A program made the translations under genes and the position numbers. The notes below the pieces were generated by a model. It saw only the letters and a list, made by a program, of their open reading frames with translations, was not told the origin of the DNA and ran no database searches. From Alcanivorax sp. DP30 (lineage in GTDB: Bacteria > Pseudomonadota > Gammaproteobacteria > Pseudomonadales > Alcanivoracaceae), in the NCBI RefSeq assembly GCF_009882945.1, contig NZ_WTUY01000004.1, positions 797,341-861,340 of the forward strand: a DNA stretch of 64,000 nt. The letters run 5' to 3'. This document shows, piece after piece, positions 2,850 to 63,877 of the stretch. The first letter of the stretch is position 1. Each line of letters opens with the position of its first letter.

Positions 2850-2938
2850 GAGCTACGAGCTACGAGAAGCGAGTTTCGAAATTCAAAAGATAACCTTTCC
2901 TTTGTAGCGAGTTTTGATCTTCGCTTCTCGAAACTCGA
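2850..2938. repeat. 7-bp-period repeat, inverted pair
   Basis: Just after the DUF2236 stop, five consecutive 7-mers (GAGCTAC, GAGCTAC, GAGAAGC, GAGTTTC, GAAATTC) run from 2850 to 2884. On the other strand at 2911-2938 a related series reads CGAGTTT, CGAGAAG, CGAAGAT, CAAAACT. The two halves form an imperfect hairpin. It has no T-run and is not a typical terminator. Confidence 0.7.
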
Positions 2939-3060
2939 CACCTTTTATTCTCACCTCAAGCGGTGCTCTTACAAAAACCGTCTGTCAAAACGCAAGAGGC
3001 CGCGTCCGAATTCCAGGCGCGGCCCCTTGCGTTTCAGTATCTACAACGATTCACTCTCGT

Positions 3061-3095
3061 TGTAGCTTGTAGCTTGTAGCTTGTAGCTAGAAGCT
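3061..3095. repeat. TGTAGCT heptamer array
   Basis: Four perfect copies of TGTAGCT followed by one degenerate copy (AGAAGCT) end four bases before the yajQ stop codon. A copy-number-variable microsatellite is possible. The same word reappears inside the inverted arrays behind polA and at 62376. Confidence 0.8.
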
Positions 3096-3099
3096 GATG

Positions 3100-3585
3100 T
3101 TAGTCCCTGAAATTATTGAACTGTAGAGGGATCTCCAGTTTGGATGCTTTCAGAAGTGCAATGGCTTCCTGAAGATCGTCGCGCTTCTTGCCATTCACGC
3201 GCACCTGTTCACCCTGGATGGAGGCCTGTACCTTCAGTTTGGCGTCCTTGATCATTTTCACGATCTGCTTGGCGGTGGGCTGATCAAGGCCTTGCTTGAA
3301 GGTCAGGGTTAGGGAAAAGGTCTTGCCGCTATGCTCCGGTTTTTCAGGGCGATCAGCGCCAGCGGCACTGATTCCCTGCTTCACGGCGGCCTTGGCAAAA
3401 ATATCTTCCAGCTGCTGAACCTGAAAGTCAGAGACTGTTTTCAGAGTGACGGTCAGGCCCTGCTGCTCGATGCTGGCTTCTACACCCCGAAAATCGAAAC
3501 GGTTTGCCAGGTCTCGGTTGGCGTTTTCCACCGCGTGGCGCAGGGCCACTTCATCAATCTCGGAGACAATATCAAAGGACGGCAT
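3100..3585 (-). CDS. yajQ: YajQ family nucleotide/c-di-GMP-binding protein
   Basis: A 161-residue protein matching YajQ (DUF520/UPF0234) along its whole length: MPSFDIVSEID start, NRDLANRFDFRGVEASIE, the central SLTLTFKQGLDQPTAKQIVKMIKD and the closing ALLKASKLEIPLQFNNFRD. Two ferredoxin-like folds are known for the family. Orthologues in Xanthomonas and Pseudomonas bind cyclic di-GMP and act as transcription co-regulators; phage-related roles are also reported. It is monocistronic here, with a 7-mer repeat at its 3' end. Length and both termini are normal for the family. Confidence 0.93.
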   Translation of the reverse strand: MPSFDIVSEIDEVALRHAVENANRDLANRFDFRGVEASIEQQGLTVTLKTVSDFQVQQLEDIFAKAAVKQGISAAGADRPEKPEHSGKTFSLTLTFKQGLDQPTAKQIVKMIKDAKLKVQASIQGEQVRVNGKKRDDLQEAIALLKASKLEIPLQFNNFRD

Positions 3586-3777
3586 GGCGTCGGCTTCCCT
3601 CGGCTATTCAACGGCTGCCAAGTATAACCGCTGACGGCCCGCTGTGGCAGGTTGCAACCCAGGTCACATTCCTGAAAATTGGTACCTTTGAAGCATATCA
3701 GTGAACCCGCCTCGGGATTATGTTGCCTGTGCTGCACGGGATTGTGCAGCACCATACATATGCCAGGAGGCACTATC

Positions 3778-4737
3778 ATGTCATTGAAGGAACGACTGTC
3801 TGCGGACAGTCTCATGGAATCCCTGCCTGTTTCACGGGATCTACTCACCCGCCTGGGGCTGCTTGGCGCCCAGGTGTCCCGCAAGATTGCCATTGACCAG
3901 GTCAGCATTGATAACGGCACGCTGCATAACCTCAAGGTGGAAACGGTCAATCTGGGCAGTGCCAGCATTGGCAGCCTGAAGGTGGAAAACGGCTCGGCCA
4001 GCGTGAACAACGCCAACGCAGTGCTGAATCAGGTGCGCAGCATTGTGGAGCTGGGCTTTCACCTTGACTGGAAAATTGATCTCGGCTGGATCGGTAGCTG
4101 GGACGGCAGTGAGGACATGGGCAGTCTCGATATCCCGGTGGATCTGGGCACTATCACCGTGCCGGATCTGGGTGATATCGACCTGCAGATACCCAGCATT
4201 GATATCCCCGGCCTGGTGGCCGAAATGAAACCCATTGATCAGCTGGATCTAGGCAACCTGGATCTTGGCGGGGTGCGGTTGGACAAGCTGAGCCTGCCCA
4301 GCGCGGGTTTGTCTATTACCGGGATGGGAGTCGGGGAGCTGACACTCAGCTCCGTCACGGTACCCTCAGCGGACGGTGAGGCCATACGGGTGAATCGTGC
4401 AGCACCCACCCGCCAGCTTTCTCTGCCCGGTGCCAGTCTGGCGAATGTGTCGATTCCCTCCATCAGCATGCCCACTGCCACCAGCGGCGCTTTCAATGCC
4501 GATGCAACCGCCTCGGACAAGTCTGTGGGTATCGATGTGGGCATCCTCAGGGTCAGTGTGCGGGTAACGCCCACGGTGCATCTCAATGTGGGCAGCATGA
4601 CCCTCAGCGATGCTCAGCTGGCAGCGGATCTGGGCAAGGTATCGATCAATGACATCAGTTTGCCGGTTTCCCTGGAAGGGATTACTGGCGGTGAGCTGGG
4701 GCTGAACAGCATCAGCGTTAACAAACTGACATTCTGA
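3778..4737 (+). CDS. unknown protein with regular beta-rich repeats
   Basis: A 319-residue protein that was not recognised. It has no signal peptide. After a helical start (residues 1-35) it turns into a long beta-like pattern of alternating hydrophobic residues with recurring I-x-I-P, L-G-x-L-x-L and S-I-P-S-I steps (GSLDIPVDLGTITVPDLGD; IDLQIPSIDIPGL; NLDLGGVRLDKLSLPSAGLS). This looks like a beta-solenoid or stacked beta-sandwich. It has no cysteine and little aromatic content. The start at 3778 follows AGGAGG. A small basic gene starts 14 bases downstream and is probably co-transcribed. Location and function are unknown. Confidence 0.7.
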   Translation: MSLKERLSADSLMESLPVSRDLLTRLGLLGAQVSRKIAIDQVSIDNGTLHNLKVETVNLGSASIGSLKVENGSASVNNANAVLNQVRSIVELGFHLDWKIDLGWIGSWDGSEDMGSLDIPVDLGTITVPDLGDIDLQIPSIDIPGLVAEMKPIDQLDLGNLDLGGVRLDKLSLPSAGLSITGMGVGELTLSSVTVPSADGEAIRVNRAAPTRQLSLPGASLANVSIPSISMPTATSGAFNADATASDKSVGIDVGILRVSVRVTPTVHLNVGSMTLSDAQLAADLGKVSINDISLPVSLEGITGGELGLNSISVNKLTF

Positions 4738-4751
4738 ACAAGGAGAGGGAC

Positions 4752-5018
4752 ATGTCACTGAATCACAAGCAATTTGAAAAGCGTTGGGAGCAGGCACACC
4801 GCAAGCAGCGCCCACAAATGAAAAAGGCATCGATTGCCCCGGTGGTGCACCTGTCGGTGATTTCTGTACTGGACAACTACATGAGCCAGTTGCACAAGGC
4901 GGTGGAAGGTCATGCTTTGAGCAAGGAAGAGTGCGATGAAGTCTGCAAGAAAATTGCAGAATTGAAACCGCTGGCCAAGAAGGCAGATAGCAAAGCGGCC
5001 AAGTACCTGCGGGTGTAA
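4752..5018 (+). CDS. small lysine-rich helical protein, unknown
   Basis: Eighty-eight residues, strongly basic and mostly helical: an N-terminal KRWEQAHRKQRPQMKK stretch, a hydrophobic middle (VVHLSVISVLDNYMSQLHKA) and a lysine-rich end (KPLAKKADSKAAKYLRV). The ribosome-binding site AGGAGAGGGAC lies just upstream. The 14-base gap to the preceding beta-rich gene suggests an operon and possibly a shared function. No family was recognised. Confidence 0.65.
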   Translation: MSLNHKQFEKRWEQAHRKQRPQMKKASIAPVVHLSVISVLDNYMSQLHKAVEGHALSKEECDEVCKKIAELKPLAKKADSKAAKYLRV

Positions 5019-5133
5019 CGCCTTCCCGCAGGAACCGGAGTGCAACGGAGGTAACAGCCGCAGGCTGGCCCGGAGGGTGAGCGCCGCGAATAACCTGCCT
5101 GCAGGCGATCCGAGCCTAAGCGAGGAAACAAAA

Positions 5134-5168
5134 ACAGTTTCGAGTTACGAGAAGCGAGTTTTGAAAGG
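5134..5168. repeat. 7-bp-period repeat (CGAGTTA type)
   Basis: Consecutive 7-mers ACAGTTT, CGAGTTA, CGAGAAG, CGAGTTT, TGAAAGG. The order CGAGTTA-CGAGAAG-CGAGTTT is the same as at 63741-63761, and both are preceded by a gatccgagcc..gcgagg segment. The two sites are therefore copies of one dispersed composite element. Confidence 0.75.
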
Positions 5169-5225
5169 CAAAAACCTGAAACTCGCGCTTGGTCTCGGAT
5201 CTCCTTCAAGCATGGGTTCATAGTC

Positions 5226-5297
5226 GCTGTGGGAGCCTGCCTGCAGGCGATGGGATATATATCGAAGGCAAATCGCTTGCAGGCAAGCTCCCACAGC
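5226..5297. repeat. REP-like palindrome GTGGGAGC..GCTCCCAC
   Basis: Inverted arms of about 26 bases (5226-5251 and 5272-5297) begin GCTGTGGGAGCCTGC and end GCAAGCTCCCACAGC. The form is like the REP elements of Pseudomonas. It lies in the gap between two convergent genes. Confidence 0.7.
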
Positions 5298-5310
5298 AGT
5301 TTCATTCTTG

Positions 5311-5380
5311 GCGTCAGGCGTCAGGCGTCAGGCGTCAGGCGTCAGGCGTCAGGCGTCAGGCGTCAGGCGTCAGGCGTCAG
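5311..5380. repeat. ten perfect tandem copies of GCGTCAG
   Basis: Seventy bases made only of the heptamer GCGTCAG, ten identical copies, ending 17 bases before the stop codon of the porin gene on the other strand. The perfect identity suggests recent expansion by slippage. The unit is not a multiple of three, so apparent coding through it is an artefact. Confidence 0.9.
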
Positions 5381-5396
5381 CTGCGTGCAGCGTTTC

Positions 5397-6821
5397 TTAA
5401 AACGCCAACACCATATCCGTGGTAAAGGCCCAGCCGTTGCCGCCCAGCTGGAAGGGGACACTGCTGTAGCCCACTGGTGAATCCTTCAGATACAACCCCT
5501 GCACATTGAAACGGAACTCCTTGCGCTTGAACGGGAACCAGTTGAAGCCCACGCTCAGGTCATGGGGGGTGCCGTATTCGCCCTGAATTTCCGAATACGC
5601 CACATAGGGTTGCAGCACTTTGGGGATGGCCATCATGGAAGCCTGAACGGAATAGCCTTTGTCATCCAGTTCGTCCACCGGCAGCGGGCCGGTGGCATCG
5701 AACTTGTCCACCCAGCGATGGTAGAACTCGGCCTCCAGGAACCAGCCCCGGTACTTCAGGCCCGCATTGGCAGCGGCCATCTGGTAGGTGGCCTGATTGA
5801 TGGCCGTGCCGTTACCGAATGGATCGGCCTGGAAGATCAGGGTGCCGTCAGACAGGCGGATCTGTGAATTTTCGAATGAGTTGGTGCCCGGCTGGGCCTG
5901 GGCATCCTCCCGGCTGTGGGTGAAGTGAATGCCAAAGCGGGTGGCCAGTTGTTCGTGGAATTCGTAATCACCGAATCCTTCGCCGGGGCCGAATTCTCCG
6001 GTGGTGGGCATCCACCATAATGAACCGGAGGCAGTATTGAGCCCGTCATCCAGCTGATTGCCGCTGACGCCCAGCTGGCTCAGGTTGTTGCCGAGCATGG
6101 CGCGGTACATCAGGCCGTCGGCGATTTTGCCTTCGGCCCAGATGCCGGTGGTGTAGGAACCACGGAAGAATTCATCGGCGATGGTGCGGTGGTCGTTCTT
6201 CAGCCAGTTGGGGAAGGTGTAGTTGGTAGACCGGGTAGAGGGCAGAGCACCGATACCGGCATACAGTTTGAACGCCGGGTTAAAGTGATAACCCAGGTTC
6301 CCGGCCACCACCACCTGGGCCGGGTCGCCCTGGCTGGTGTTGGAAGTCCAGGTATAGAACAGGTATTGCAACTTGGGATCAAAGATCCAGCCCTTGAAGC
6401 TGATGTTCACTTTCTGGAACTGGAAGTCATTGCGTGGATCGATGTTGCTGGTGTTCCCGAAGCTGTCGGTATAGGTGCGGTCGAAGTCTTTCTGGTTCAG
6501 GTAACGGGTGTAGCTGAAGACTCCGAAATTTACCTCGCCCATGTCTGAACTGAACAGGTTGAAGCCCCGGCCGGGACGGTAGCCCAGGCTTCTGCCTGGC
6601 TGGGGCGTGGCGGCCGGTGGCGCGGCGCTTTCCCCATACAGCTCGGTCTCCAGCTGCTGGATGCGTTGATCAAATTGCTGGCTCTGTTGTTCCAGGTTCT
6701 GGCGCAGGGTTTTCAGTTCCTGCAGTTGTTGCTCTACATCCTGCGAACCGGTTTCCGCAGTGGCGGGTGACGCAAGCGTGGCGACGCAAAACGCCGCTGA
6801 AAGAGTGGCTAATTTTCGCAT
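5397..6821 (-). CDS. outer-membrane porin, OprO/OprP-like
   Basis: A 474-residue exported protein: signal peptide to about residue 22 (ASPATA-ET), then a coiled coil rich in Q/L (residues 27-62, DVEQQLQELKTLRQNLEQQ) as in periplasmic trimerising helices of porins, then a beta-barrel from about residue 85 (FNLFSSDMGEVNFGVFSYTRY) to a C-terminal phenylalanine (TTDMVLAF), the usual BAM signal. The overall form fits the phosphate-selective porin O/P superfamily, but the substrate cannot be inferred. It starts 18 bases behind the lipoprotein-amidohydrolase gene and is probably its operon partner. The 3' end borders a GCGTCAG tandem array. Confidence 0.8.
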   Translation of the reverse strand: MRKLATLSAAFCVATLASPATAETGSQDVEQQLQELKTLRQNLEQQSQQFDQRIQQLETELYGESAAPPAATPQPGRSLGYRPGRGFNLFSSDMGEVNFGVFSYTRYLNQKDFDRTYTDSFGNTSNIDPRNDFQFQKVNISFKGWIFDPKLQYLFYTWTSNTSQGDPAQVVVAGNLGYHFNPAFKLYAGIGALPSTRSTNYTFPNWLKNDHRTIADEFFRGSYTTGIWAEGKIADGLMYRAMLGNNLSQLGVSGNQLDDGLNTASGSLWWMPTTGEFGPGEGFGDYEFHEQLATRFGIHFTHSREDAQAQPGTNSFENSQIRLSDGTLIFQADPFGNGTAINQATYQMAAANAGLKYRGWFLEAEFYHRWVDKFDATGPLPVDELDDKGYSVQASMMAIPKVLQPYVAYSEIQGEYGTPHDLSVGFNWFPFKRKEFRFNVQGLYLKDSPVGYSSVPFQLGGNGWAFTTDMVLAF

Positions 6822-6839: not shown

Positions 6840-7997
6840 TCAGTTGTTTTCATCTGCCGGACAGACATTGGGTGCGTTGTAATCCAGTTCCATCAGCTTG
6901 AAGTAGTTGGCGCCCAGGGCAATGTTGTGGAACGCCTGGTCATCCAGAGCCCTGAGCACTCTGCTGGTGACTTCCAGCTCCTTGGCATACTGGTCATCGG
7001 CCTTGTAACCCGCTGCAACGAAGTCGGTGCCGGGCAGAATGCGAGTGGAGTATTTGTTGAGGAAGGGGACATAGATCTCGCCCCACTGATGATACTCGTT
7101 GTAGAGCACGTCCCAGGAGATATCCAGCATCAGGTGCGGATAGGTATCCAGCAGGTTGCCGAGAATCTCCACATGGCGGGCAGGATCCATGTTGCCCAGT
7201 TCCTTGGACAGCCCCATATGGGCCCAGACGATCTTGTTGTCCGGATAGGTCTCCAGAATGTGTTGCATCAACGGCAGGAACTCGGTGGGGTTGGCGTCGT
7301 TGCCCAGATCGGAATGGAAAGTGACCGGGATGCCGCGCTCGCGCAGCACCTTCATGAACGGACCCCACTGGTTGATGGATTCTATGGTGGCGGGCTCGTG
7401 ATTGTTCTTCAGCAAGGCCTGCTTCATGACATTCAGTTCACCACTCCAGCTGAACATGCCCGGGTACTCGCGGTCGTAGAGTTCAATCAATTCCGCGATG
7501 TTGTCGGGGTGTGCCAGATCCATGAAGGTCATGGACAGGGTGATGTGCAGGTTCTCGGAGGGATAGGCCACCGTTTCCATGCCATTCACGAAATCATTCT
7601 TGATGCTGGGCATGGCGGTGACGCCGGGGCAATCCAGGTAATAGTTGCAGCCGGAATCCAGTTCCAGAATTTGCCCGATACCAAAATAGTTCACAAAGCG
7701 AACGCCCTGGTCTTCCAGCATGGTGTGGAGCTTTTCAACCGGGATGGCAGCGCCACCGAACGGACGCGGGTGGAAGTGGGCATCCACCAGCGGGGTATAG
7801 GGTTCGCGGTCGCGGTCGTAACAGGCCTGCTGATCACTGGGTTGGCTCAGCGAGGCCAGAGTGCGGGGATTATCGCTGCGGGTGCCTGCGTCGCTGCCCA
7901 GGGAAGCACAGCCACTGATTAAGGCGCCCAGGGAGAGGGTCAGCAGAGCGGTGCGAAGAGGTATAATGGTGCTGCGTGCAGCAGGAAGATTAGCCAT
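6840..7997 (-). CDS. lipoprotein amidohydrolase (metal-dependent hydrolase)
   Basis: A 385-residue protein with a lipoprotein signal (LTLSLGALISGC lipobox), so it is probably anchored in the periplasm. The rest is an amidohydrolase-2 type TIM barrel: DAHFHPRPFGG carries the first metal-binding HxH, followed by VTFHSDLGND, KIVWAHMGLSKEL, LMLDISWDVLYN and a late Asp in ILPGTDFVAA. Family members hydrolyse or decarboxylate lactones and carboxylates; the substrate is unknown. A longer in-frame start at 8135 adds 46 non-signal residues and is rejected. The porin gene follows after 18 bases, suggesting a substrate uptake and processing pair. Confidence 0.78.
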   Translation of the reverse strand: MANLPAARSTIIPLRTALLTLSLGALISGCASLGSDAGTRSDNPRTLASLSQPSDQQACYDRDREPYTPLVDAHFHPRPFGGAAIPVEKLHTMLEDQGVRFVNYFGIGQILELDSGCNYYLDCPGVTAMPSIKNDFVNGMETVAYPSENLHITLSMTFMDLAHPDNIAELIELYDREYPGMFSWSGELNVMKQALLKNNHEPATIESINQWGPFMKVLRERGIPVTFHSDLGNDANPTEFLPLMQHILETYPDNKIVWAHMGLSKELGNMDPARHVEILGNLLDTYPHLMLDISWDVLYNEYHQWGEIYVPFLNKYSTRILPGTDFVAAGYKADDQYAKELEVTSRVLRALDDQAFHNIALGANYFKLMELDYNAPNVCPADENN

Positions 7998-9821: not shown

Positions 9822-10005
9822 GTCGAACGTCTGAAGTCGGACGTCTGACGCGAAAGACAGAAAACGGCAGCATCAAAGCTGCTGGCACAAACACAAGAAC
9901 AATCACAAGGACAAAAGCTGGTCGCGATCCACTCCTGCATTGCACAAATCAGCTATCACCTGACCGCGTGATTTTGGGTTCAGCGTCAGACTTCAGACGT
10001 CCGAC
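9822..10005. repeat. 7-bp-period inverted pair (GTCTGAC type)
   Basis: The left array 9822-9849 reads GTCGAAC, GTCTGAA, GTCGGAC, GTCTGAC. The right array 9978-10005, read on the other strand, is GTCGGAC, GTCTGAA, GTCTGAC, GCTGAAC. The core between them (about 130 bases) has no gene. Confidence 0.75.
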
Positions 10006-10146
10006 CTCTGGCATGACGGCATAACATTCCCTCAAATCTGCGATGAACCTTTTTATGGCTGAAAAGCAGCAACACGCTTTAAAAGTCACAAGCGGAAAGG
10101 TTGGATGCATTCGTAACGGATGTGGCTGCCGGGATTTTCGATGCCA

Positions 10147-10513: not shown

Positions 10514-10555
10514 AAACTCGAAACTCGAAACTCGAAACTCGAAACTCGAAACTCC
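10514..10555. repeat. AAACTCG heptamer array
   Basis: Five perfect AAACTCG units and a sixth with one change (AAACTCC) run up to the first base of the stop codon of the RND pump gene (TAG, read on the minus strand). Confidence 0.85.
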
Positions 10556-40572: not shown

Positions 40573-42684
40573 TTAAGAGTTAATAATTGACTCTAATATG
40601 CACTCCATTTCTTTTGGCCTAATTTTATTTAGCCTCATTCTTTCAATTATTAGATTTCTGAGGTGGCGATACTGACATCCGATTCCAGATTTCTGACACA
40701 TCTTGTTTAAAACGTCTCTTCCTCGAAAGGTTGTCTTCCAGTCTCCGTTGAGAAGATCATTTTTTAGATTTTCTCGGATAGATTTCTCTAGTTCCATCAA
40801 AGATTCTTTGCTTAATTCACTAGATGATAATTTTTCTAAGCCTTTAATCGTTTCATTGATGGTTTCTGAATATTTTTCGGGGAGGTTCTCGCTATCGGTT
40901 TTGTTTATATTAAGTCGGATTTTTGACTTGAAAGAATTTTTAACAAAGTGGTCTAATTTTATGGAGATTAAATTTTCTAAGGTTTCTTCGGCTGAATCAA
41001 AGAGTAGAGATCTAACCTTTTCAAGGGTGAATCTCCCCTGCCTGTTATCTAAGCTTTCAAGAACGTAAGAAATGGCTTCTTCGTCTAGAAGGTAGTTTTC
41101 TATATGGTAAGATGGCCATTGGAATATATGATCGTCGTCCGGCTTTTCTTTATCGAAGTCGCTATCAACAATGGCATAGAATTTCCTGGCATAAATATCA
41201 CTGTTTTCGGCGGCCCTGAGTAATGGGGTTAGACTTAGGGCTGATCGTTTTGATCCAGATGAGATTATGTTTAGTTTATCGATCTTGTCAGGTAGCAGGC
41301 TTCGCAGAATGGTTTCGTCTATTCCTGGATCCCCTTGTCCCTCCAGGAGCAGTACCTTTGAGTGTGGATTGAAAGCTGCCACATCACCAACCAGATCTAT
41401 AATGGTTGATTCGAAGTCGTTGGGGTTATCTTTGGTGAGGCGTTTGGCCTGATTCTCCTCTCTGTCAGCGTGAAAGGGCTCCAGGTGAAAAACTTGGTAT
41501 CCGGGTAGTGACATTGCCTCCCGTAAAATTGCGTCAGAGTGAGTGATCATGATTATTTGGTTGCCTGCATTTTTTCCAAGGTTTTTTTCATAAAATCTGG
41601 CGAGACCCTTTGATAGGGCTGGGTTTAAATGTAGCTCTGGTTCATCTAGTAAAACGATGGAGTTGCGGGGTACATTGTTATGTAGGCGCAAGTATCCAAG
41701 TAAAAGCTCCTTTTCTCCTGAACTTAATTCGTCAATGTCGTGCTGTCCTCCCCCTTCTAAATATACAGGGAATTCTAAGCCTCCATCTTCTACTGGAACT
41801 GGGCCGTCAAATCGCTTTCCAGGGAAGAAAATCGAAAATAGCTCTTTTAGAGATGAGATTAAATTCGCGGAATCTTCTTGAGGTTTCTTTGTGGCTCTTT
41901 CTGATAAGAGTTGTTTTATGTAGGCGCTTGCCATCTCGCCTTTTATGCCGTTGTATTTGTTTTGTGAGTTGTAAAGTCTATGCTGTGCAGCTCGTTGGTT
42001 TCTGGCTTCAACATTAAGGTTTATATTTGCGATCCGTTCTTTATTATAAGATCTATTGGGGCTATGAAACTCAATTACTCCCAAATCAGACGGATTGTCT
42101 GTGCTGAATACTATTTCCATAACAAGCGATGGCCGTATCATTACTTCTGCGCTGGGAGTAACATAAATTCCTAAATGGTATTCACTCAATGCCAGCTCTT
42201 GCTCTATCTTCTCAATGTCTAGTCTGGCTTGCTCTTCCACTTGAGCTTCAAATCGTGCTCGTTGAGCGGGTGGAACAACTATCGCTTCTTCTTTGATTAG
42301 TCCTAGCGAGGACCTCTGCGATTTTCTGCCTGTGTACTGCTCCCACATTCTGTTTCTTATCATTAAGGGAGCTGTTTTTCGTATATACTCTTTTTCATCC
42401 TTTTCAAGGGTAAAACTAATTTCTATTTCTAAAGGCTTGGTGTGGTCTCTTGTTATTTTTTTTGCATCCGCCGAGAGGTCTTGAATGCTTAGTTCTGTGT
42501 AAAGCTGCTTTAATTCATTGTCGTACCACTGTCCGTAGGCTGATTTGATTAGCTTGATAGAGTCCAGGATTGTCGATTTTCCGCACCCATTTGCGCCTGC
42601 AATTACAATGCTTTCCCCAAGCTTATCCATCTCTGCATGCTGTATTGACTTAAAATTTTTCACGCAAAGCGAAACGATTTTCAT
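40573..42684 (-). CDS. AAA15 ATPase fused to TOPRIM/DUF4435-like domain (PARIS- or OLD-like)
   Basis: A 703-residue protein. The N-terminal half is an SMC-like AAA15 ATPase: Walker A AGANGCGKST (29-38), signature ELSSGEKE (319-326), Walker B SIVLLDEPELHLNP (342-355) and switch His in MITHSDA. The C-terminal half has a TOPRIM-like core: LLLEGQGD (446-452), VDSDFD (506-511), then WPSYHIENYLLD (523-534), which resembles DUF4435. AAA15 plus DUF4435 is the AriA/AriB pair of the PARIS anti-phage system; fused forms are known. An OLD-type nuclease is the alternative. The gene is visibly AT-richer than its neighbours and alone between ltrA and polA, as expected for an acquired defence gene. Confidence 0.75.
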   Translation of the reverse strand: MKIVSLCVKNFKSIQHAEMDKLGESIVIAGANGCGKSTILDSIKLIKSAYGQWYDNELKQLYTELSIQDLSADAKKITRDHTKPLEIEISFTLEKDEKEYIRKTAPLMIRNRMWEQYTGRKSQRSSLGLIKEEAIVVPPAQRARFEAQVEEQARLDIEKIEQELALSEYHLGIYVTPSAEVMIRPSLVMEIVFSTDNPSDLGVIEFHSPNRSYNKERIANINLNVEARNQRAAQHRLYNSQNKYNGIKGEMASAYIKQLLSERATKKPQEDSANLISSLKELFSIFFPGKRFDGPVPVEDGGLEFPVYLEGGGQHDIDELSSGEKELLLGYLRLHNNVPRNSIVLLDEPELHLNPALSKGLARFYEKNLGKNAGNQIIMITHSDAILREAMSLPGYQVFHLEPFHADREENQAKRLTKDNPNDFESTIIDLVGDVAAFNPHSKVLLLEGQGDPGIDETILRSLLPDKIDKLNIISSGSKRSALSLTPLLRAAENSDIYARKFYAIVDSDFDKEKPDDDHIFQWPSYHIENYLLDEEAISYVLESLDNRQGRFTLEKVRSLLFDSAEETLENLISIKLDHFVKNSFKSKIRLNINKTDSENLPEKYSETINETIKGLEKLSSSELSKESLMELEKSIRENLKNDLLNGDWKTTFRGRDVLNKMCQKSGIGCQYRHLRNLIIERMRLNKIRPKEMECILESIINS

Positions 42685-45486: not shown

Positions 45487-45556
45487 GGTGCTCGGCTTCT
45501 GCTGATGAGTGAGTGGAGAGAGTGTAGCGGAATTGGGCGGGTTCGGCAGGCGGGGA

Positions 45557-45817
45557 GCTACAAGCTTCAAGCTGCAAGCTACAACGCGGGTTAGGCATCA
45601 GTTAAACGGGAATGCCGTGCCCGTGATTCTTTGGCGGTCTTCATTCAGCAAGTTGAATCTCCCACAAAACAATCATCTGGTGTAAAGGCAGGGCCCTTGA
45701 GGGAGGGGCAGCTTGCTGAACGAAGGTTCTCGCGCCCAGCCCAGGATCGCGGGCACGACCCTGTCAGCGAAGGTATGCCTTACTTCGCGTTGTAGCTTGC
45801 AGCTTGAAGCTTGTAGC
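45557..45817. repeat. composite element with 32-bp perfect inverted ends of 7-mers
   Basis: The left end reads GCTACAA, GCTTCAA, GCTGCAA, GCTACAA, CGCG; the right end (45786-45817) is its exact inverse. Inside, a second imperfect inverted region (TTCATTCAGCAAGTTGAAT.. against ..AGCTTGCTGAACGAA) continues the pairing, so the arms are about 110 bases long. The 575-base gap between polA and mrpA otherwise holds only presumed promoters. Confidence 0.85.
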
Positions 45818-46061
45818 TGTCCTTAGGCATACTCAGTGCTCCTTTCTATCAATACGGATGCCATGACCGCTTCTTTGGTCCAGCCCTGCCGCATCATTCT
45901 GTCCCAGTGCCCGCGCCGGGGGCGTCGTCCGTATTTTCCTGATCCGCCGCCGTTGTCATTGTCTTTCTAGCCTAGTCTGTTCAAGCTATCGGGCGGGTTG
46001 CCGCCTGTGAAAACGACGAATCCGCTTACGGGAAGCGGTATTCATGACAACGGATTGATCT

Positions 46062-51443: not shown

Positions 51444-51506
51444 GCTGGAGGCCTGACGCTGGACGCGGTTTCGTCTGGCGTCGGGGATAAGGCGTCAGGC
51501 GCGGAG
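51444..51506. repeat. nine degenerate 7-mers inside the mrp operon
   Basis: The gap between mrpF and mrpG is filled by 7-mers: GCTGGAG, GCCTGAC, GCTGGAC, GCGGTTT, CGTCTGG, CGTCGGG, GATAAGG, CGTCAGG, CGCGGAG. The last unit also supplies the only ribosome-binding-site-like sequence of mrpG. Confidence 0.7.
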
Positions 51507-51511
51507 CGATT

Positions 51512-55737: not shown

Positions 55738-56640
55738 ATGCTGCTGGACAAGGCCCGTACAGCTTACCGTGACTGGAAGGCCCGCCCCGCGGGCTTTTCC
55801 TTTGCTCGCGAAGGAGTAAGAAAAACCCGCCAGACCCGTGAAGTGGTGTTGCCTGACAACACCCTCAAACTGGTCAGTTTCAATATCCAGGCGGGGATCG
55901 GTTCGCAGAAATTTGGCGACTATATTACCGGCAGCTGGAAGCATCTGGTTGCCCATCCCCGCAGTGTGGAAAACATCGAGCAGATCGCCGAAGTGATCAG
56001 CCACTTCGATGTGGTGGGCCTGCAGGAAGTGGATGGCGGCAGCCTGCGTTCACGGAACATGAACCAGCTGGTGCGGCTGGCCTCGCTGGGTGATTTTGCC
56101 TTCTGGCACCAGCAGCTGAACCGCAACCTGGGTCGCCTGGGCCAGTTCAGTAATGGTTTTCTCAGCCGTCTGCAGCCCTATGAAGTGACGGATCATCGCC
56201 TGCCGGGGCTGCCTGGCCGTGGCGCGATCGTGATCAAGTACGGGCACCCGATTCAGCCCCTGGTGGTGGTGGTGGCTCACCTGGCGTTGGGTGAGAAGAT
56301 CCGCAATACCCAACTGGCCTATCTCTATCGTCTGCTGCGTGAGTACAAGTACGTAGTGATGATGGGGGATTTCAATTGCCGGCTGGAGCATCTGGATGCC
56401 TCACCCCTGTCCGAACTGGGGCTGGGTACAGTGATGGCAGAGAACCTCAATACCTACCCCAGCTGGGCGCCGGATCGTCATATCGACCATATCCTGCTTT
56501 CGCCAGGGCTGACCAGTCAGCACACCCGCGTGCTGGAAGACTGCAAGCTGTCGGATCATCTGCCGCTGGCCACGGAAATCATCGTCCCGGACGATGTGAT
56601 CTCGGCCACCCTGGAACACCGGCTGCCGCTAATCAATTAA
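55738..56640 (+). CDS. endonuclease/exonuclease/phosphatase family protein
   Basis: A 300-residue metal-dependent phosphoesterase of the EEP fold: KLVSFNIQAGIGS (first metal Asn), VVGLQEVDGGS (catalytic Glu), VVVAHLALG, VVMMGDFNCRLE (Asp-Phe-Asn) and the closing DHLPLATEIIV with the catalytic Asp-His. Substrate not predictable (DNA, lipid or nucleotide phosphates). It is directly coupled to dsbA and corresponds in position to PA5488. No signal peptide. Confidence 0.9.
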   Translation: MLLDKARTAYRDWKARPAGFSFAREGVRKTRQTREVVLPDNTLKLVSFNIQAGIGSQKFGDYITGSWKHLVAHPRSVENIEQIAEVISHFDVVGLQEVDGGSLRSRNMNQLVRLASLGDFAFWHQQLNRNLGRLGQFSNGFLSRLQPYEVTDHRLPGLPGRGAIVIKYGHPIQPLVVVVAHLALGEKIRNTQLAYLYRLLREYKYVVMMGDFNCRLEHLDASPLSELGLGTVMAENLNTYPSWAPDRHIDHILLSPGLTSQHTRVLEDCKLSDHLPLATEIIVPDDVISATLEHRLPLIN

Positions 56641-56641
56641 G

Positions 56642-56795
56642 AATGAATAGTTAATAATGAATAGCTGCGCGGTTGGGTGTTTGTGTCTTTTTTAGTCTAA
56701 GCGCCGCGTACAAGCTGCGAGGCGCGGACATCACTGCAAGCAAAACCACCAACCTTGCTCGTGTGTTATTAATTCTTAACTATTCATTATTCATT
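56642..56795. repeat. 7-bp-period AT-rich inverted pair
   Basis: The left array is AATGAAT, AGTTAAT, AATGAAT directly after the endonuclease-like stop codon. The right array (56768-56795), on the other strand, is AATGAAT, AATGAAT, AGTTAAG, AATTAAT. The core also pairs (GGTTGGGTGTTTG with CAAGCAAAACCACCAACC). Confidence 0.75.
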
Positions 56796-59442: not shown

Positions 59443-60795
59443 TCAGTACCGCGTTTCCGCCATTCCCGAAAACTGTTTGGCCAGATACGTCGCGTAGTTG
59501 TCAGTCATCCCGGCGAGAAAATCCAGTGCCCGCATGATGCATTGATAAATTCTTTCCTGCTCCGGCAGTTGTTCGAGATCTTCCGGAAAACTGTGCCGGC
59601 CGATCAGGTCGATGATGCGTTCGTGACGGTAATTTTTTGCGCTGTTGCAGGCGTGGGAAACTGCCGCTTCGATGAGCCCATCCAGCAGGGCGCCCATGAC
59701 TTCAAAGGCGCCAATTTCCAGTTCGATTTTTCTCGGATGCTCAAACACTTTTGAGCGCGCCAGCTGCTTGGCATTTTCTACCACATCGCGCACCGCCGGT
59801 TCGCAGTGGCTGATGAGATCCCCTTCCATGCGCCCTTGCAGCAAGCGTTCGTGGTTGGCCACAAAGGCTTCCACGCCGGCCTCGATAAATCGCTCGATAA
59901 TCTTGCCGCGTAGCAGTGCGGCCTTGCGCCCGTCGCGCAGGTCGGAATGAATCAGTTCGCTCACTTCCCTGGTGTCAGGTAACGCCGGTTGCAGCAGGGC
60001 ATAGACTTCATCCCAGTGCAGCAGGTCCATTTCCAGGCCGTCTTCCAGATCAATAATGGCGTAGCAGAAGTCGTCGGCGGCCTCCATCAGGTAGGCCAGC
60101 GGATGGCGACTGAAGCGCCCGGCCGCTTGTTCCAGCAGGCCGGTGGCGTTGGCGACTTCACGGAAGGCTGCCGCTTCTGACACGAAGGCGCTGTATTTGC
60201 CAGGCTTGCTACTGGCCAAGCCCGCATCCGCGGATAGCCAGGGGTATTTCAGGAAGGTGGCCAGGGTGGCGTAGGTGAGGCGCATGCCATCATCGTATTG
60301 GTGGTATTCGCTCTTGGTGAGAATGCGAAACCCCTGGGCATTCCCTTCAAAAAAAGTCAGGTCGCTTTGCTGGTGTTCAGGGAGCAGATCCAGGAAGCGT
60401 TGCCCCCGTTCCTGAAACCAGGCACGAATGGCGCGCTCGCCAGTATGGCCGAACGGCGGGTTGCCGATGTCATGGGCCAGACAGGCAGATTGGACAATGT
60501 CGCCAAAGTCGGTGGCGCTGACGGATTCCGGCAGCAGGTGTTTTGACTGCAGGCGCTCACCGGCACGAATGCCCAGGGTGCGCCCCACGCAGGAGACTTC
60601 CAGCGAGTGAGTCAGACGATTGTGGACGTGGTCGTTGGTGGCCAGCGGGTGGACCTGGGTCTTGCGGGCCAGGCGTCGAAAGGCGCCGGAAAAAATGATC
60701 TTGTCATGATCACGCAGAAAGGCGGTGCGCCCGCTTTCGTCTTTTGCATCGCGCCCGCCAAGGCGGGTCTTGCTCAATAGCTGTTGCCAGTCCAT
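59443..60795 (-). CDS. dgt: deoxyguanosinetriphosphate triphosphohydrolase (dGTPase)
   Basis: A 450-residue HD-domain enzyme: DESGRTAFLRDHDKIIFSGA, AFRRLARKTQV, NRLTHSLEVSCVGRTLG (first metal His), CLAHDIGNPPFGHTGE (HD pair) and the later AADDFCYAIIDLEDGLEM. These fit the dGTPase family, which hydrolyses dGTP to deoxyguanosine and triphosphate and limits dNTP pools. The start at 60795 removes 22 non-family residues. It converges with the hydrolase and is divergent from the DJ-1/PfpI gene. Confidence 0.93.
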   Translation of the reverse strand: MDWQQLLSKTRLGGRDAKDESGRTAFLRDHDKIIFSGAFRRLARKTQVHPLATNDHVHNRLTHSLEVSCVGRTLGIRAGERLQSKHLLPESVSATDFGDIVQSACLAHDIGNPPFGHTGERAIRAWFQERGQRFLDLLPEHQQSDLTFFEGNAQGFRILTKSEYHQYDDGMRLTYATLATFLKYPWLSADAGLASSKPGKYSAFVSEAAAFREVANATGLLEQAAGRFSRHPLAYLMEAADDFCYAIIDLEDGLEMDLLHWDEVYALLQPALPDTREVSELIHSDLRDGRKAALLRGKIIERFIEAGVEAFVANHERLLQGRMEGDLISHCEPAVRDVVENAKQLARSKVFEHPRKIELEIGAFEVMGALLDGLIEAAVSHACNSAKNYRHERIIDLIGRHSFPEDLEQLPEQERIYQCIMRALDFLAGMTDNYATYLAKQFSGMAETRY

Positions 60796-60924
60796 GAAAT
60801 CCGGTCCAGGGTTGATATTGCCGCTGCAAGTACCCACGGTTGGTTCACAGCATGTTGCCATGGCTTGTGCTGTGATGAACAGGCTGCATCCCCGTTGAAT
60901 TCTATGACGTTTCGGGAGGAGAGA

Positions 60925-61596
60925 ATGAAACTGGACAATCCGTTGTTAATGCTTGTGACCAGTGCCTCGCAAATGGGGCAGGGTCAGCAGACCGGCCTCT
61001 GGCTGGAAGAGTTTGCTGTGCCGTACCTGGCTTTTCGTGAGCAGGGCATTCCGCTGGTAGTTGCCAGCCCCCGGGGTGGCAAGATTCCGGTGGATCCCAA
61101 TTCCATTCCCGACGACGATCAGAAAGAGGCCTGGGTCGAAGCCATTGCGGCATTACAGGACACCAGGGTACTGGAAACCGTCTGGGAAGACGCTTTTGCC
61201 GGTGTCTTTGTCCCGGGTGGCCATGGTGCCATGTTCGACATGCCGGATAATCCTCTTGTGGCTGCGGTCATGGAGCGCACCTGGAATCGTGGCGGTCTGC
61301 TGGCCGCGGTCTGTCACGGGCCGGCGGCGCTGGTCGGGTTGCGCAATGAAGACGGCACTCCGCTGGTACAGAACCGCACCGTGGCGTGTTTCACCAATGA
61401 TGAAGAGCGCGAAGTGGGCCTCGACGAGGTGATGCCCTTCCTGCTGGCAAACCGCTTGGAAGAGCTGGGCGCGACGCTTGATCTGGCGGACAAGTTTGTG
61501 GCGCATACAGTCAGTGATGGAAAACTGGTGACCGGCCAGAATCCGCAATCCAGTGCGGCGGTGGCACAGGCTGTTATAGCCGCGCTGTCAGCATAA
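60925..61596 (+). CDS. type 1 glutamine amidotransferase-like (DJ-1/PfpI) protein
   Basis: A 223-residue class I glutamine amidotransferase-like protein: LWLEEFAVPYLAFREQGIPL, VASPRGGKIPVDPNS, DAFAGVFVPGGHGAMFDM and the nucleophile elbow LLAAVCHGPAALVGL (Cys-His). This form is close to the Hsp31/YhbO-type glyoxalase III or chaperone group. A role in carbonyl stress is plausible but unproven. The start at 60925 follows GGAGGAGAG. Glutathione peroxidase follows after 49 bases, probably in the same unit. Confidence 0.87.
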   Translation: MKLDNPLLMLVTSASQMGQGQQTGLWLEEFAVPYLAFREQGIPLVVASPRGGKIPVDPNSIPDDDQKEAWVEAIAALQDTRVLETVWEDAFAGVFVPGGHGAMFDMPDNPLVAAVMERTWNRGGLLAAVCHGPAALVGLRNEDGTPLVQNRTVACFTNDEEREVGLDEVMPFLLANRLEELGATLDLADKFVAHTVSDGKLVTGQNPQSSAAVAQAVIAALSA

Positions 61597-61645
61597 TTCA
61601 GAGTAATCGTGGCCTGCGGGCCACCACTAAGGACATGGAGTGATA

Positions 61646-62128
61646 ATGGGGATTTACGATTTTTCTGCCACCACCCTGAGCGGTGATGAGAAGAGCCTGG
61701 CGGAGTTCAAGGGCAAGGTCATGCTGATTGTGAACACGGCCAGCAAGTGTGGCTTTACCCCACAATTCGAGGGCCTGGAAGGGCTCTACGATGATCTCAA
61801 GGACAAGGGGCTGGAAATTCTCGGTTTCCCCTGCAATCAGTTCGGCAAACAGGAACCCGGTGCCGCCGATGAGATCGGTGCGTTCTGCCAGAAAAATTAT
61901 GGCGTCAGCTTCACCATGTTCGACAAGATTGATGTGAACGGTGATGGCGCCCACCCACTGTATAACTTCCTCAAGAAGGAAGCCCCAGGCGTGTTGGGCA
62001 GCAAGGGTATCAAGTGGAACTTCACCAAGTTTCTGGTGAACAAGGACGGCAAGGTGATGAAGCGCTATGCCCCCACCGACAAGCCTGAAGCGATTCGCAA
62101 GGATATTGAAAAACTGCTGAACGCCTGA
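61646..62128 (+). CDS. glutathione peroxidase (thioredoxin-type Cys-GPx)
   Basis: A 160-residue peroxidase: [19 protein letters not shown] with peroxidatic C35, [13 protein letters not shown] with the catalytic Gln and the resolving-type Cys, and [13 protein letters not shown] with the catalytic Trp-Asn. Bacterial members with Cys in place of selenocysteine usually take electrons from thioredoxin. It reduces hydro- and lipid peroxides. An upstream in-frame GTG would add two residues; ATG with GGAG upstream is preferred. Confidence 0.94.
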
Positions 62129-62160
62129 TGCCCGACGCTTGCTCCGCCCTGTGATCAGGC

Positions 62161-62306
62161 TGTAGGAGTTTCCTTCCAGGGGACGAAGACGAACCTGACG
62201 CTATAAGATGGCTAAACGGTCTTGGCCGCTTCGCCGCTCAGGGTCGGTCGCTCTTCGATTGATTCCGCGCTCCGTGCGGTTCGTCCCTCAAGAGGAACGC
62301 CTACAG
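62161..62306. repeat. 146-bp element with inverted ends, same family as 52909
   Basis: The left end TGTAGGAGTTTCCTTCCAGG (continuing GGACGA) and the right end TCGTCCCTCAAGAGGAACGC (continuing CTACA) are imperfect inverses. The rest of the 258-base gap has no gene; a short TTGTAGCTG fragment lies just beyond, at 62376. Confidence 0.65.
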
Positions 62307-62386
62307 TTCCTCCGATGACTCAGTTGCCTGTGCGCGGGCAAAGCGTTTCAGAACCTTCATGCCTTGCCCGCGCCTTGTAGCTGTCT

Positions 62387-62812
62387 TTACGCGCTCTTGC
62401 GCTTTTCCAGCATTTCAAAGATCACCATGCCGCAGAGCATGGCGGCCACGAACACCACGGCCTTCAGGCTGCCGGTGCCCAGTGCTACCAGTGCCGGGCC
62501 CGGGCAGAAGCCGGCCAGCCCCCAGCCGACTCCAAATCCCAACGCCCCCAGCACCAGGCGCTTGTCCAGCTTGCGGTTGGTGGGCACCTGAAAGCTGGCG
62601 CTGAACAGGGGGGCGGTGCGGTGGCGAGTCAGATAAAACCCGATGGCCGATACCGGAATGGCGCCGCCCATCACCAGGGCCAGGGATGGATCCCAGTTAC
62701 CTGCGATGTCGAGAAAGGCAAGTACCTTGGCCGGATTGGCCATGCCCGCCAACAGCAGGCCAAGGCCGAAGATCAGTCCGGCCACAAATGCCGTGATATG
62801 ACTGCGATGCAT
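62387..62812 (-). CDS. YeeE/YedE (DUF6691) family sulfur transport half-protein B
   Basis: A 141-residue membrane protein with four helices and the family signatures GLIFGLGLLLAGMANPAKVL and GFGVGWGLAGFCPGPALVAL, the Cys-containing loop expected to line the thiosulfate/sulfide path. Two such halves form one YeeE-like unit (PmpA/PmpB). Its start shares a base with the stop of the partner gene. Third gene of the BigR-type operon. Confidence 0.9.
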   Translation of the reverse strand: MHRSHITAFVAGLIFGLGLLLAGMANPAKVLAFLDIAGNWDPSLALVMGGAIPVSAIGFYLTRHRTAPLFSASFQVPTNRKLDKRLVLGALGFGVGWGLAGFCPGPALVALGTGSLKAVVFVAAMLCGMVIFEMLEKRKSA

Positions 62813-63249
62813 TACACACCTCCGAGAAGATGGCGAACCACGAAGACAGTGACGAAGCCGCTGCCCATGAAGGCGGCGGTGGCTACCAGTGAGCGGGGTG
62901 ACAGACGGGACATACCGCATACGCCATGGCCGCTGGTGCAGCCGGCCCCATAGCGGGTGCTGATCCCGACCACCAGACCGGCCACAATCAATAGCGGGAT
63001 GTCTGCATCAATGATCATCGGTGGCAGGGTGCCCATCAGTGCCCACGCGGTGGGGGCGATGAGCATGCCGAGGATAAAGGCGATGCGCCAGCCGCGGTCC
63101 AGCGGGGCCGGGCGCAGCAGTCCGCCAACAATGCCACTGATGCCGGCAATGCGGCCATTGGTGTGCAACAGCCACAGGGCGGCCAGGCCGATGAGGGCGC
63201 CTCCGGCCAGTGAGGCCCAGGGGGTAAAGGCATTCCAGTCGATGGTCAT
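62812..63249 (-). CDS. YeeE/YedE family sulfur transport half-protein A
   Basis: A 145-residue membrane protein with four helices and the partner signatures [20 protein letters not shown] and [20 protein letters not shown], whose cysteines are conserved in YeeE-like thiosulfate transporters. It overlaps the regulator gene (ATGA) on one side and the second half-protein on the other. Movement of a reduced sulfur species is inferred from the family. Confidence 0.92.
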
Positions 63250-63584
63250 CAGGACGCTCCGCAGAATTGCTCGTAAAGGGTGTGCAGAATGGCCAGCGCC
63301 CGAGGGTCGGCCACCCGGTAAAACATGTGCTTGCCGTCCCGGCGTCCCTCAATCAGGCCTTCCCGGCGCAGTACGCCGATCTGTTGGGAAAGCGAGGGCT
63401 GGTGCAGATCAGCCAGTATTTCCAGTTCGCTGACACTGCGCTCGCTGCCATCAGCCATTTGGCACAGCAGCATCAGGCGATCCGGATGGGACAATGCCTT
63501 GAGCATCTGGCTGGCGTCACTGGCGTTGGCACGGAGGCTTTCCGCATCGGGTAACAGGGATGAGTTTGCAGCTACATTATTCAT
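63249..63584 (-). CDS. bigR: ArsR family regulator of the BigR/SqrR type
   Basis: A 111-residue winged-helix repressor: [20 protein letters not shown], then [20 protein letters not shown] (recognition helix region) and [20 protein letters not shown]. Its only cysteines are C41 and C108, equivalent in position to C42 and C108 of Xylella BigR, which form the persulfide- or disulfide-based sulfide switch. It is the first gene of the operon with two YeeE-like halves, the known BigR target arrangement. A palindrome covering its start codon suggests autorepression. Confidence 0.9.
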
Positions 63585-63598
63585 AATTTAATAATGTA
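63573..63598. promoter_or_regulatory. BigR-type operator overlapping the start codon
   Basis: A perfect inverted repeat TACATTATT / AATAATGTA with an eight-base spacer. The ATG of the regulator gene lies in the spacer/arm region. It is AT-rich, as are known BigR boxes. Confidence 0.7.
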
Positions 63599-63690
63599 TA
63601 TTGTTGTGCAGGATTTGGCAAGGGGGGGGCGCTCATGCGACAGAATGCGGGCGAGGCCGCAGGCAGCAGAGGAGCTGTTCCCGGGCTGCT

Positions 63691-63877
63691 GTAGGAGCGA
63701 GCCTGCTCGCGATCCGAGCCTTGGCGAGGTAATAAAGTTTCGAGTTACGAGAAGCGAGTTTCGAAAATCACAAGCCTGCTGGCTGGAGGCGAGCCTTAGG
63801 GTTTTGCCTTTCGTTACTCGTAACCCGAAACGACCACCTCGCTTAGGCTCGGATCGCGGTCGAACGACCGCTCCTAC
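63691..63877. repeat. composite element: REP-like arms around 7-mers
   Basis: The outer arms GTAGGAGCG..CGCGATCCGAGCC..GCGAGG recur inverted at the right end. The inner left array is CGAGTTA, CGAGAAG, CGAGTTT, CGAAAAT, and an inverse series (CGGGTTA, CGAGTAA, CGAAAGG) faces it. Of the annotated repeats, this element shows most clearly how the two repeat types are nested. No gene is contained. Confidence 0.8.

Follow-up and report, generated by a model that had tools for sequence, protein, structure and literature searches.

Heptamer arrays in the 64-kb window

The window, i.e., the whole 64-kb stretch of DNA that was analysed, comes from an oil-degrading, culturable marine bacterium of the genus Alcanivorax. 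A preliminary description of this DNA reported intergenic repeats with one 7-bp register and many different heptamer sequences. Direct reading of the claimed sites confirms that these repeats are real and that the register is common to them. However, their sequence is not locus-specific, as had been suggested, but family-specific: AAGCTNCAAGCTNCAACRCG occurs 66 times in the genome, and the reversed version of it, used as a control, 0 times. We distinguish the families A (GCTNCAA), H (AGTTNAA), B (ARTKAAN), C (GTCKGAM) and D (CGAGNNN), plus others.

Pure arrays were found at 5310..5380, where TRF reports 10.1 copies of GCGTCAG (100%), and at 10514..10554, where TRF reports 5.9 copies of AAACTCG (100%) directly abutting the stop codon of an RND permease gene. 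An A-type array, (TTGTAGC)x4, lies on the minus strand at 3060..3095 and ends 4 bp from the stop codon of yajQ (TRF 3060-3088, 4.1 copies, 100%); both its heptamer and its copy number vary between species. At 51444..51507, the preliminary description counted nine units. A period-7 signal is present here, with a lag-7 identity of 0.53 versus 0.255 ± 0.066 (top 0.3% of windows), but the array, of the GCGTC kind, is decayed and TRF reports none.

Several sites consist of inverted arms around a core. The A-type element upstream of polA (45556..45818) has two perfectly inverted 29-bp arms, AGCTACAAGCTTCAAGCTGCAAGCTACAA followed by CGCG, and a core of 205 bp; TRF reports 4.1 copies at 86% in each arm (45556-45584 and 45790-45818). 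The B-type element at 56635..56795, with AATGAAT/AGTTAAT arms, has a 101-bp core and a total length of 161 bp (arms reported by TRF at 56637-56664 and 56766-56795). The C-type element at 9822..10006 has a left arm at 9822-9849 (GTCGAAC GTCTGAA GTCGGAC GTCTGAC; TRF reports 9822-9848 as a 14-mer) and a right inverted arm at 9985-10006. A remnant A-type half-element on the minus strand (62330..62381) matches the half-core profile described below with an E-value of 0.026 and retains a single GCTACAA.

D arms were confirmed at 2850, 5138 and 63741, all of them short. The D-type hairpin at 2850..2938 (GAGCTAC GAGCTAC GAGAAGC GAGTTTC, inverted arm at 2920-2938; TRF 2850-2866, 2.4 copies) lies 3 bp from the stop codon of an MPAB-domain gene, and the corresponding hairpin of A. 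nanhaiticus has an expanded right arm. The D-type arm at 5138..5186 (CGAGTTA CGAGAAG CGAGTTT, with a decayed inverted partner) lies within a REP-like inverted repeat. At 63690..63876, a REPIN-like element combines outer REPs (GTAGGAGCG...GCGATCCGAGC) with inner D heptamer arms at 63741-63767 and 63808-63832.

Abutment to stop codons, another reported property, was found at 2850, 3095, 5380 and 10554 (0-16 bp), and also at 56635, where the left B-type arm overlaps a gene end at 56640, stop codon included. It does not apply to the element at 45556-45818, which sits between divergent genes, a location shared by only 3 of the 32 placed arrays. Likewise, inverted pairs around a core occur at several sites but not at all of them, as the 350 bp around the arrays at 5310 and 10514 contain no inverted partner (p = 0.77 and 0.51, respectively).

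Period-7 excess and element anatomy

A clear tandem excess was found for period 7 alone, both across the window and in a systematic sampling of the Alcanivorax genome. We counted 23 period-7 arrays in a systematic set of 20 own-genome stretches of 20 kb (399 kb in total). The other periods from 4 to 15 gave 7 arrays for period 9, 16 for the harmonic period 14, and at most 3 for the rest. A stricter count in the own-genome stretches yielded 16 arrays, versus 0 in a Markov control. Exact lag matches of at least 12, scanned in the window for all periods 2-24, were found only for period 7 (3 sites), 14 (3 sites), 21 (2 sites) and once for period 3. Elsewhere, period-7 arrays are far sparser: four order-mates gave 2 in 680 kb, and other Gammaproteobacteria 2 in 1.47 Mb. 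Among the genomes sampled, the elements are restricted to the genus. Scanning the window and four stretches against Rfam gave no family that reached the gathering score.

The full element is a palindrome of ~155 bp, composed of a heptamer arm, a CGCG junction, a core and an inverted arm. Each arm contains three or four (mostly four) head-to-tail heptamers, and the core of ~97–100 bp is formed by a pair of inverted half-cores and has a GC-rich stem at its centre. In the unselected set of 36 arrays (window plus 20 systematic stretches), inverted partners no more than 350 bp away were detected for 23 at p ≤ 0.05, and for 12 also at p ≤ 0.01, compared to random places; the other 13 had none at p ≤ 0.05, and most long pure arrays are among them. 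Polarity was identical in all 25 same-family inverted pairs of a larger sample, 22 of which come from stretches picked by a BLAST match to the A element of the window. Core length was 96-104 bp in 12 of these 25 pairs, and 96-105 bp in 23 of 28 H elements.

The arms share a common neighbour. A profile built from the inner half-core, free of heptamers, gave 22 matches in other species at E ≤ 1, all of which adjoin a heptamer array (A, H, B or other kinds). At E ≤ 10, 35 of 37 places in other species adjoin a heptamer array, and the remaining two adjoin 2-3 heptamer units. The individual E-values are weak (0.04 to 10), and the profile gave 0 matches in reversed sequence and 0 in the 1.47 Mb of other Gammaproteobacteria. 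Since different heptamer arms adjoin a homologous half-core, the period is best read as inherited together with the element.

The core halves were also considered as a conserved long stem, with marginal results. Pairing within an element was only slightly better than pairing across elements (permutation p = 0.038). When the core was folded by itself, folding was strong (z below −2) in 9 of 21 cases. RNAalifold predicted 29 pairs in 23 H elements, 3 of them with two-sided change; the arm pairs appear invariant by construction, because these elements were retrieved via the AGTTNAA pattern.

Our results point, with a probability of about 70%, to heptamer arrays that are mainly the arms, or remnants, of a superfamily of short palindromic dispersed elements. 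Period 7 would then occur at every site because the elements descend from a common ancestor with heptameric ends. The heptamer sequences may have drifted into families, with their register on the half-core staying fixed. The elements would multiply as whole units; they lie in intergenic DNA, often directly behind stop codons, and replace each other at the same slots over species time. Like MITEs, they are short, with terminal inverted repeats and many dispersed copies. Unlike in MITEs, target-site duplications of at least 3 bp were found in 0 of 28 H elements, and an autonomous transposon with A, B or H ends was absent from the loci scanned. Also at odds with this reading, the variable letters of left and right H arms did not agree beyond chance (p = 0.11).

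Slippage, slot turnover and candidate movers

In the papers cited here, abundant bacterial heptanucleotides are explained by polymerase slippage, and 7 nt has been proposed as a polymerase-interacting length (Mrazek 2007, as cited in PMC4679880 and PMC4692102). By slippage alone, heptamers would be born at unrelated loci with 7-nt steps favoured, and the pairs and families would be secondary. This would agree with reports that many bacterial genomes are enriched in heptanucleotides or have them as their most abundant class of long SSRs (PMC4679880, PMC4692102), with the 13 arrays that have no inverted partner, and with the pure arrays, which differ between relatives in 7-nt steps, as had been expected. 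AAACTCG has 5.9 copies in the window versus 52 in genome G005; GCGTCAG has 10.1 copies in the window, about 2.6 in G014, and 0 in G005, G006 and G007. At one slot, the right arm alone has expanded in G005, G007 and G014. Hence, 7-nt slippage does occur, in a subset of arms turned pure arrays, where the copy number of identical units changes.

In contrast, the degenerate arms lack the homogenised neighbours of slipping repeats. Identical neighbouring units were rarer than chance in both A arms (24 of 148, versus 46.2 in shuffled arms) and H arms (7 of 132, versus 31.5 expected). For the A arms this is the opposite of what slippage or step copying would produce, and it speaks against the suggestion that a mechanism copying in 7-bp steps caused the common period. 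Moreover, slippage alone does not predict the lack of an excess in the sampled Gammaproteobacteria and order-mates, different heptamers beside one homologous half-core, or a single polarity in all 25 pairs, and we consider it very improbable. What survives of the preliminary description is the register, pairs, stop-codon proximity, copy-number change and a link to other heptamers; its step-copying cause is not supported. In the palindromic-element reading, arms with identical units may slip, expand or shrink in 7-nt steps, and become pure arrays. This natural series from degenerate arm to pure array would illustrate how dispersed elements can give birth to tandem repeats.

Alternatively, the arms might be arrays of binding sites for a DNA- or RNA-binding protein, such as a regulator, a nucleoid protein or an RNA-stability factor, each subunit of which would read one heptamer; the elements would then be maintained by selection for a host function rather than by mobility. 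This could explain why one heptamer position is nearly free, being variable in 57% of cases (17 A arms) and 69% (12 H arms), versus at most 25% at other positions, in halves retrieved without their arms and assigned to A or H by unit consensus. Concentration of mismatches in one phase within single arrays was weak (0.603 versus 0.557, p = 0.06; 0.619 versus 0.551, p = 0.009). The location of arrays behind stop codons, with so few between divergent genes, and the presence of some hairpin in the same slot in most compared species would also suit a binding site. However, genome G001 contains zero A, H or B patterns, no candidate reader protein was found, and a host function would hardly account for the exchange of families and the burst described next. 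As a full explanation, binding sites appear quite improbable; they are compatible with mobility, and this reading therefore overlaps with that of dispersed elements.

Family H has multiplied recently in one species, G012, where its three-unit pattern has 198 matches, versus 0-44 in the other 16 genomes. We compared those H slots of G012 for which an element of another family was available from the same slot. In 4 of 5, the core resembled an H core from another place in G012 (0.74-0.95) more than the same-slot element (0.22-0.57). At slot 18700 the nearest core was that of the same-slot A element (0.61 versus 0.58), and slot 11200 had no element for comparison. Different families occupy the same intergenic slots in different species. 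Examples are polA|mrpA, six places in the L064 block and a further five slots, one of which is empty in G007. Such repeated occupation of one slot is unusual for ordinary transposition.

The D heptamers are the inner stems of REPINs: at locus L234 of G005, a complete REPIN and one that lacks its distal REP, both with D inner stems, flank a RAYT-like gene. This one locus implicates a RAYT-like transposase as a candidate mover of the D family. A REP head lies within 90 bp outside 16 of 80 D arms (e.g., 63690-63876 in the window), versus 1.1% of random positions, coding positions included. In the loci scanned, the sole arm pair that encloses a transposase is of type D, with one arm in each of two adjacent REPINs. 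Within 5 kb, no transposase gene in these loci is enclosed by A, B or H arms.

All families might be REPINs moved by RAYT transposases, with A, B and H as derivatives that lost their REP ends. Besides the D stems, this would fit that G001, which lacks A, H and B patterns, is also the sole genome of 17 without Y1_Tnp (60 matches in the other 16), and that Y1 count and summed pattern count are correlated (Spearman rho 0.59, p = 0.013, n = 17, uncorrected for relatedness and genome quality). Yet A, B, H and C elements lack two inverted REPs with a GTAG-type tagged palindrome. None of the 158 arms of families A, B, C and H has a GTAGGAGC-type REP head within 90 bp on its outer side (0 of 149 for A, B and H). 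Heptamer arrays occurred within 700 bp in 2 of the 19 Y1 loci examined with flanks. We regard this extension to all families as unlikely; being a special case of the dispersed-element reading, its odds overlap with that reading. RAYT as the direct owner of A, B and H arms was discarded, as no heptamer array lies within 700 bp of any of the three own-genome Y1 transposases; in L231, single arrays lie at 1.2 and 1.8 kb. By analogy with MITEs and REPINs, we infer that the dispersed elements may be moved by a trans-acting enzyme that works on the arms, each arm serving as a row of recognition units.

Heptamer repeats in other bacteria

Tandem heptamers in intergenic DNA are known from the STRR heptamers of cyanobacteria. 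That our repeats resemble in kind the heptamers of other bacteria, as proposed at the outset, is supported by published descriptions from Xanthomonas and Geobacter, where four-heptamer inverted pairs are already in print. Xanthomonas has G-rich heptamers, (GGGAATC)n, with 70-75 close pairs of opposite orientation per genome (PMC4692102). As in our elements, they are intergenic, consist mostly of four heterogeneous units and lie near stop codons, with few between divergent genes. They differ in that a single heptamer family was studied, read as quadruplex-forming; the accessible text describes no core, mobility or family exchange. Geobacter metallireducens has paired putative global-regulator sites and four-heptanucleotide elements, proposed as IHF/HU-type binding sites (PMC2700814). 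These resemble ours in having three to five tandem hepta- or octanucleotides, several classes that mostly occur as opposite-strand pairs at variable distance, and tens of copies, but the accessible text mentions no half-core common across classes.

Possibly, part of these repeats are related elements or their debris, a comparison based on the published descriptions. In this tentative reading, against which we would still place the odds, our elements would represent a class of mobile palindromes, absent from the papers found, whose ends form a heptad code of mostly four steps, read by a putative protein with one subunit per heptamer. Each step would have six constrained letters and one nearly free letter, with neighbours kept different. 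The code would drift and switch between families, and register and half-core would persist.

REPINs are likewise described as extragenic inverted pairs with predicted hairpins, at spacings of 71 and 110 bp in SBW25, and have been proposed to multiply as a unit (PMC3116915). In contrast, our A, B, C and H elements end in heptamers and carry no GTAGGAGC-type REP, and only the D heptamers correspond to inner stems. The TAACTGA repeats of Beggiatoaceae and cyanobacteria are also intergenic tandem heptamers at many sites. They comprise one heptamer, often upstream of starts, and the Maribeggiatoa genome has a single indirect repeat among 169 direct-repeat sets (PMC4679880).

A literature search found no description of the literal heptamer strings, of heptamer repeats in Alcanivorax, or of miniature inverted or palindromic repeats in this genus. 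One A arm, searched against plasmids, retrieved one Pseudomonas record, in which the arrays are pure. Within a single genus, our results tie the 7-base register to a defined palindrome that has several families, one burst and an exchange at slots, and the origin of heptanucleotide repeats can be tested in a marine bacterium that is culturable.

Period 7 in the window and beyond

The preliminary description had proposed a fixed 7-bp period at intergenic sites, and this period is real: both TRF and exact lag runs singled it out in the window. The excess over other periods also held in the 3.62-Mb genome of this strain, where 20 systematic stretches (398,811 bp) contained 23 arrays at period 7; period 9 had 7, and, the harmonic 14 aside, no other period of 4–15 exceeded 3. 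Stricter scan settings left 16 period-7 arrays in these stretches and none in a Markov control. With the same scan, 78 yajQ loci of other Gammaproteobacteria (1,473,708 bp) gave 2 period-7 arrays versus 25 at period 12, and 34 stretches from four genomes of the same order (680,000 bp) gave 2. Among the yajQ loci, otherwise poor in heptamers, that of a Vibrio sp. carries ~16 D-family-like AGTTGCG heptamers (L160:19233-19346). Pseudomonas aeruginosa pZM21 has two adjoining pure arrays, of the TCTGGCT and TCAAGCT kinds, in 149 bp (L219:19949-20097).

For Xanthomonas and Geobacter, an excess of heptanucleotides, arrays of four units and pairs in inverted orientation have already been published (excerpts of PMC4692102 and PMC2700814); the comparison also covered excerpts of PMC4679880, PMC3116915 and PMC9788540. 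We found no description of the Alcanivorax heptamer system among the open-licence papers searched, nor of the common half-core and slot exchange described below.

At a slightly lower threshold, the window and the 20 systematic stretches yielded an unselected set of 36 arrays. According to crude gene calls, 2 of the 36 are intragenic; of the 32 that could be placed, 15 lie in tandem, 14 in convergent and 3 in divergent arrangement. The nearest gene end of the placed arrays, by the same calls, was a stop codon in 21 of 32, at a distance of at most 17 bp in 17 of these 21. Several elements start at the stop codon of the gene upstream or overlap it (loci L310 and L313; window 56635-56640); by eye, in at least 2 H elements (L310, L313) a TGA stop codon is completed by the element's first base. 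This suggests that elements insert at the stop codon or are trimmed back to it.

A half-core common to different heptamer families

The heptamers fall into families A (GCTNCAA), H (AGTTNAA), B (ARTKAAN), C (GTCKGAM), D (CGAGNNN) and others. Many arrays are arms of a palindromic element of ~155 bp, in which a CGCG junction leads to a core of two inverted half-cores. In the unselected set, an inverted partner within 350 bp was found for 23 of 36 arrays at p ≤ 0.05 and for 12 at p ≤ 0.01, relative to these arrays set at 200 random positions; among the 13 arrays without a partner at p ≤ 0.05 are those at window positions 5310 and 10514, together with most of the remaining long pure arrays. A larger sample of 104 arrays was drawn from the window plus 40 stretches, of which 20 had been chosen, mostly for a BLAST match to the A element of the window. 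It contained 25 inverted pairs whose two arrays share a family and lie no more than 400 bp apart. All are of one polarity; 22 came from the chosen stretches, 19 were of family A and one (window 2850/3095) joins two separate arrays. Core length was 96–104 bp in 12 of the 25.

In 72 A arms aligned on the inner junction, the fourth unit is often recognisable and the fifth lacks a consensus; neighbouring units were identical in 24 of 148 cases versus 46.2 expected from shuffles. In the element at window 45556-45818 the two arms, 29 bp each, are identical; as single-stranded DNA this element folds with z −11.9, and a second element gave z −6.4. Left and right arms paired better than random in 17 A elements (p 0.018), and the free letters of the two arms of 22 H elements showed no agreement beyond chance (p 0.11). 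The core stems are weakly conserved, which counts against the reading given here.

A profile of 46 positions of the inner half-core, built from 72 A halves without any heptamer, was searched against 811,507 bp of Alcanivorax loci, which come from other species apart from 5,850 bp of own sequence (L202). At E ≤ 1 it matched 22 places; every one is in another species and adjoins a heptamer array. At E ≤ 10 it matched 38 places, or 37 without the own one in L202; 35 of these 37 lie beside an array and the remaining two adjoin 2–3 heptamers. It had no match in reversed sequences or in the other Gammaproteobacteria sampled. The adjoining arrays comprised A, H and B kinds as well as CTAGCTN, GCTACGA and intermediates. 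Among 34 distinct halves, one heptamer position was variable in 57% of units of 17 A arms and 69% of units of 12 H arms, versus at most 25% at other positions; a few inner units were out of register as read. Matches in the unselected own set are not independent because own halves trained the profile. They numbered 10 at E ≤ 10; by eye, 8 stand beside at least 2 heptamers, one beside none, and the one at window 62330-62372 has a single heptamer next to it. Judged from sequence, these results would be best explained if the heptamer families formed one superfamily, united by a half-core common under different heptamers.

A terminator-like palindrome, AAACGCAAGAGGCCGCGCC...GGCGCGGCCTCTTGCGTTT, and its variants recur in different species, both in intergenic regions and at the centre of several elements (window ~2988-3035; L064 ~7384-7430; L336; L329).

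Slot turnover, copy number and dispersal

The comparison of intergenic slots drew on 16 further genomes of the genus (17 including our own, G000); the yajQ protein of the window is 99% identical to that of Alcanivorax nanhaiticus. The locus upstream of polA held both neighbours in 12 of 17 genomes. A elements occupy this slot in G000, G006, G009 and G013, and D elements in G005, G007 and G014. G012 has an H element there, G001 a decayed A-like element, and G008 and G010 a REP-type hairpin in which one arm is D-like; G002 has no heptamer element. Six sites of the L064 block likewise carry different families in different species, as do five G012 slots set against their counterparts in four species, one slot being empty in G007. 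Some slots in some species contain other REP-type hairpins or none at all. Same-slot identity was at best 0.21–0.61 between families and 0.55–0.99 within a family. Next to polA, window 40573-42684 encodes an AAA ATPase with weak similarity, below curated cut-offs, to Eco8 retron effector and PtuA models.

The expected copy-number change between relatives was borne out in pure arrays. AAACTCG at the stop of the RND permease gene has 5.9 copies in the window versus 52 in G005, and for GCGTCAG the window has 10.1 copies, G014 ~2.6, and G005, G006 and G007 zero. These differences are slippage. In one L064-block slot, expansion is limited to the right D arm in G005, G007 and G014.

Across the 17 genomes, pattern counts started at 0 and rose to 107 for the A junction, 198 for three H units and 425 for three B units (overlapping matches included), with reversed controls of 0 for A and, per strand, at most 9 for H and 5 for B. 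The H maximum was in G012, followed by 44 in the next genome. In 4 of 6 G012 H slots compared by core, the nearest H core elsewhere in G012 (0.74–0.95, the better of two orientations) was more similar than the same-slot element of another family (0.22–0.57); slot 18700 showed the reverse (0.58 versus 0.61), and for slot 11200 no same-slot element of another family was found. Among 28 H elements from G012, G014 and G005, retrieved with the AGTTNAA pattern and a 60–200-bp gap, core length was 96–105 bp in 23, none had a target duplication, and the base preceding the left arm was G or C in all 28 (TG in 17).

D heptamers and REPINs

Genes matching Y1_Tnp, which we take to be RAYT-like in part from their flanking REPs, occur in 16 of 17 genomes (60 matches). 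In G005, one such gene (L234:4908-5384) lies between a complete REPIN (~4703-4886) and a second REPIN lacking the distal REP, and D heptamers form the inner stems of both. A REP head was found outside the arm in 16 of 80 D cases versus 1.1% of random positions, coding included, and in none of the A (0/77), B (0/52), H (0/20) or C (0/9) cases. The D family thus probably belongs with REPINs, as far as sequence features indicate. The other families work like REPINs or MITEs, yet fall outside them in tests of membership.

A heptamer array lay within 700 bp of the Y1 gene in 2 of 19 Y1 loci fetched with flanks. Y1 and pattern counts correlated across the 17 genomes (rho 0.59, p 0.013, ignoring relatedness). 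The 3.12-Mb genome of G001 is the sole one with neither a Y1_Tnp match nor A, H or B pattern matches; despite these zero pattern counts, it has kept its decayed A-like element upstream of polA (L215).
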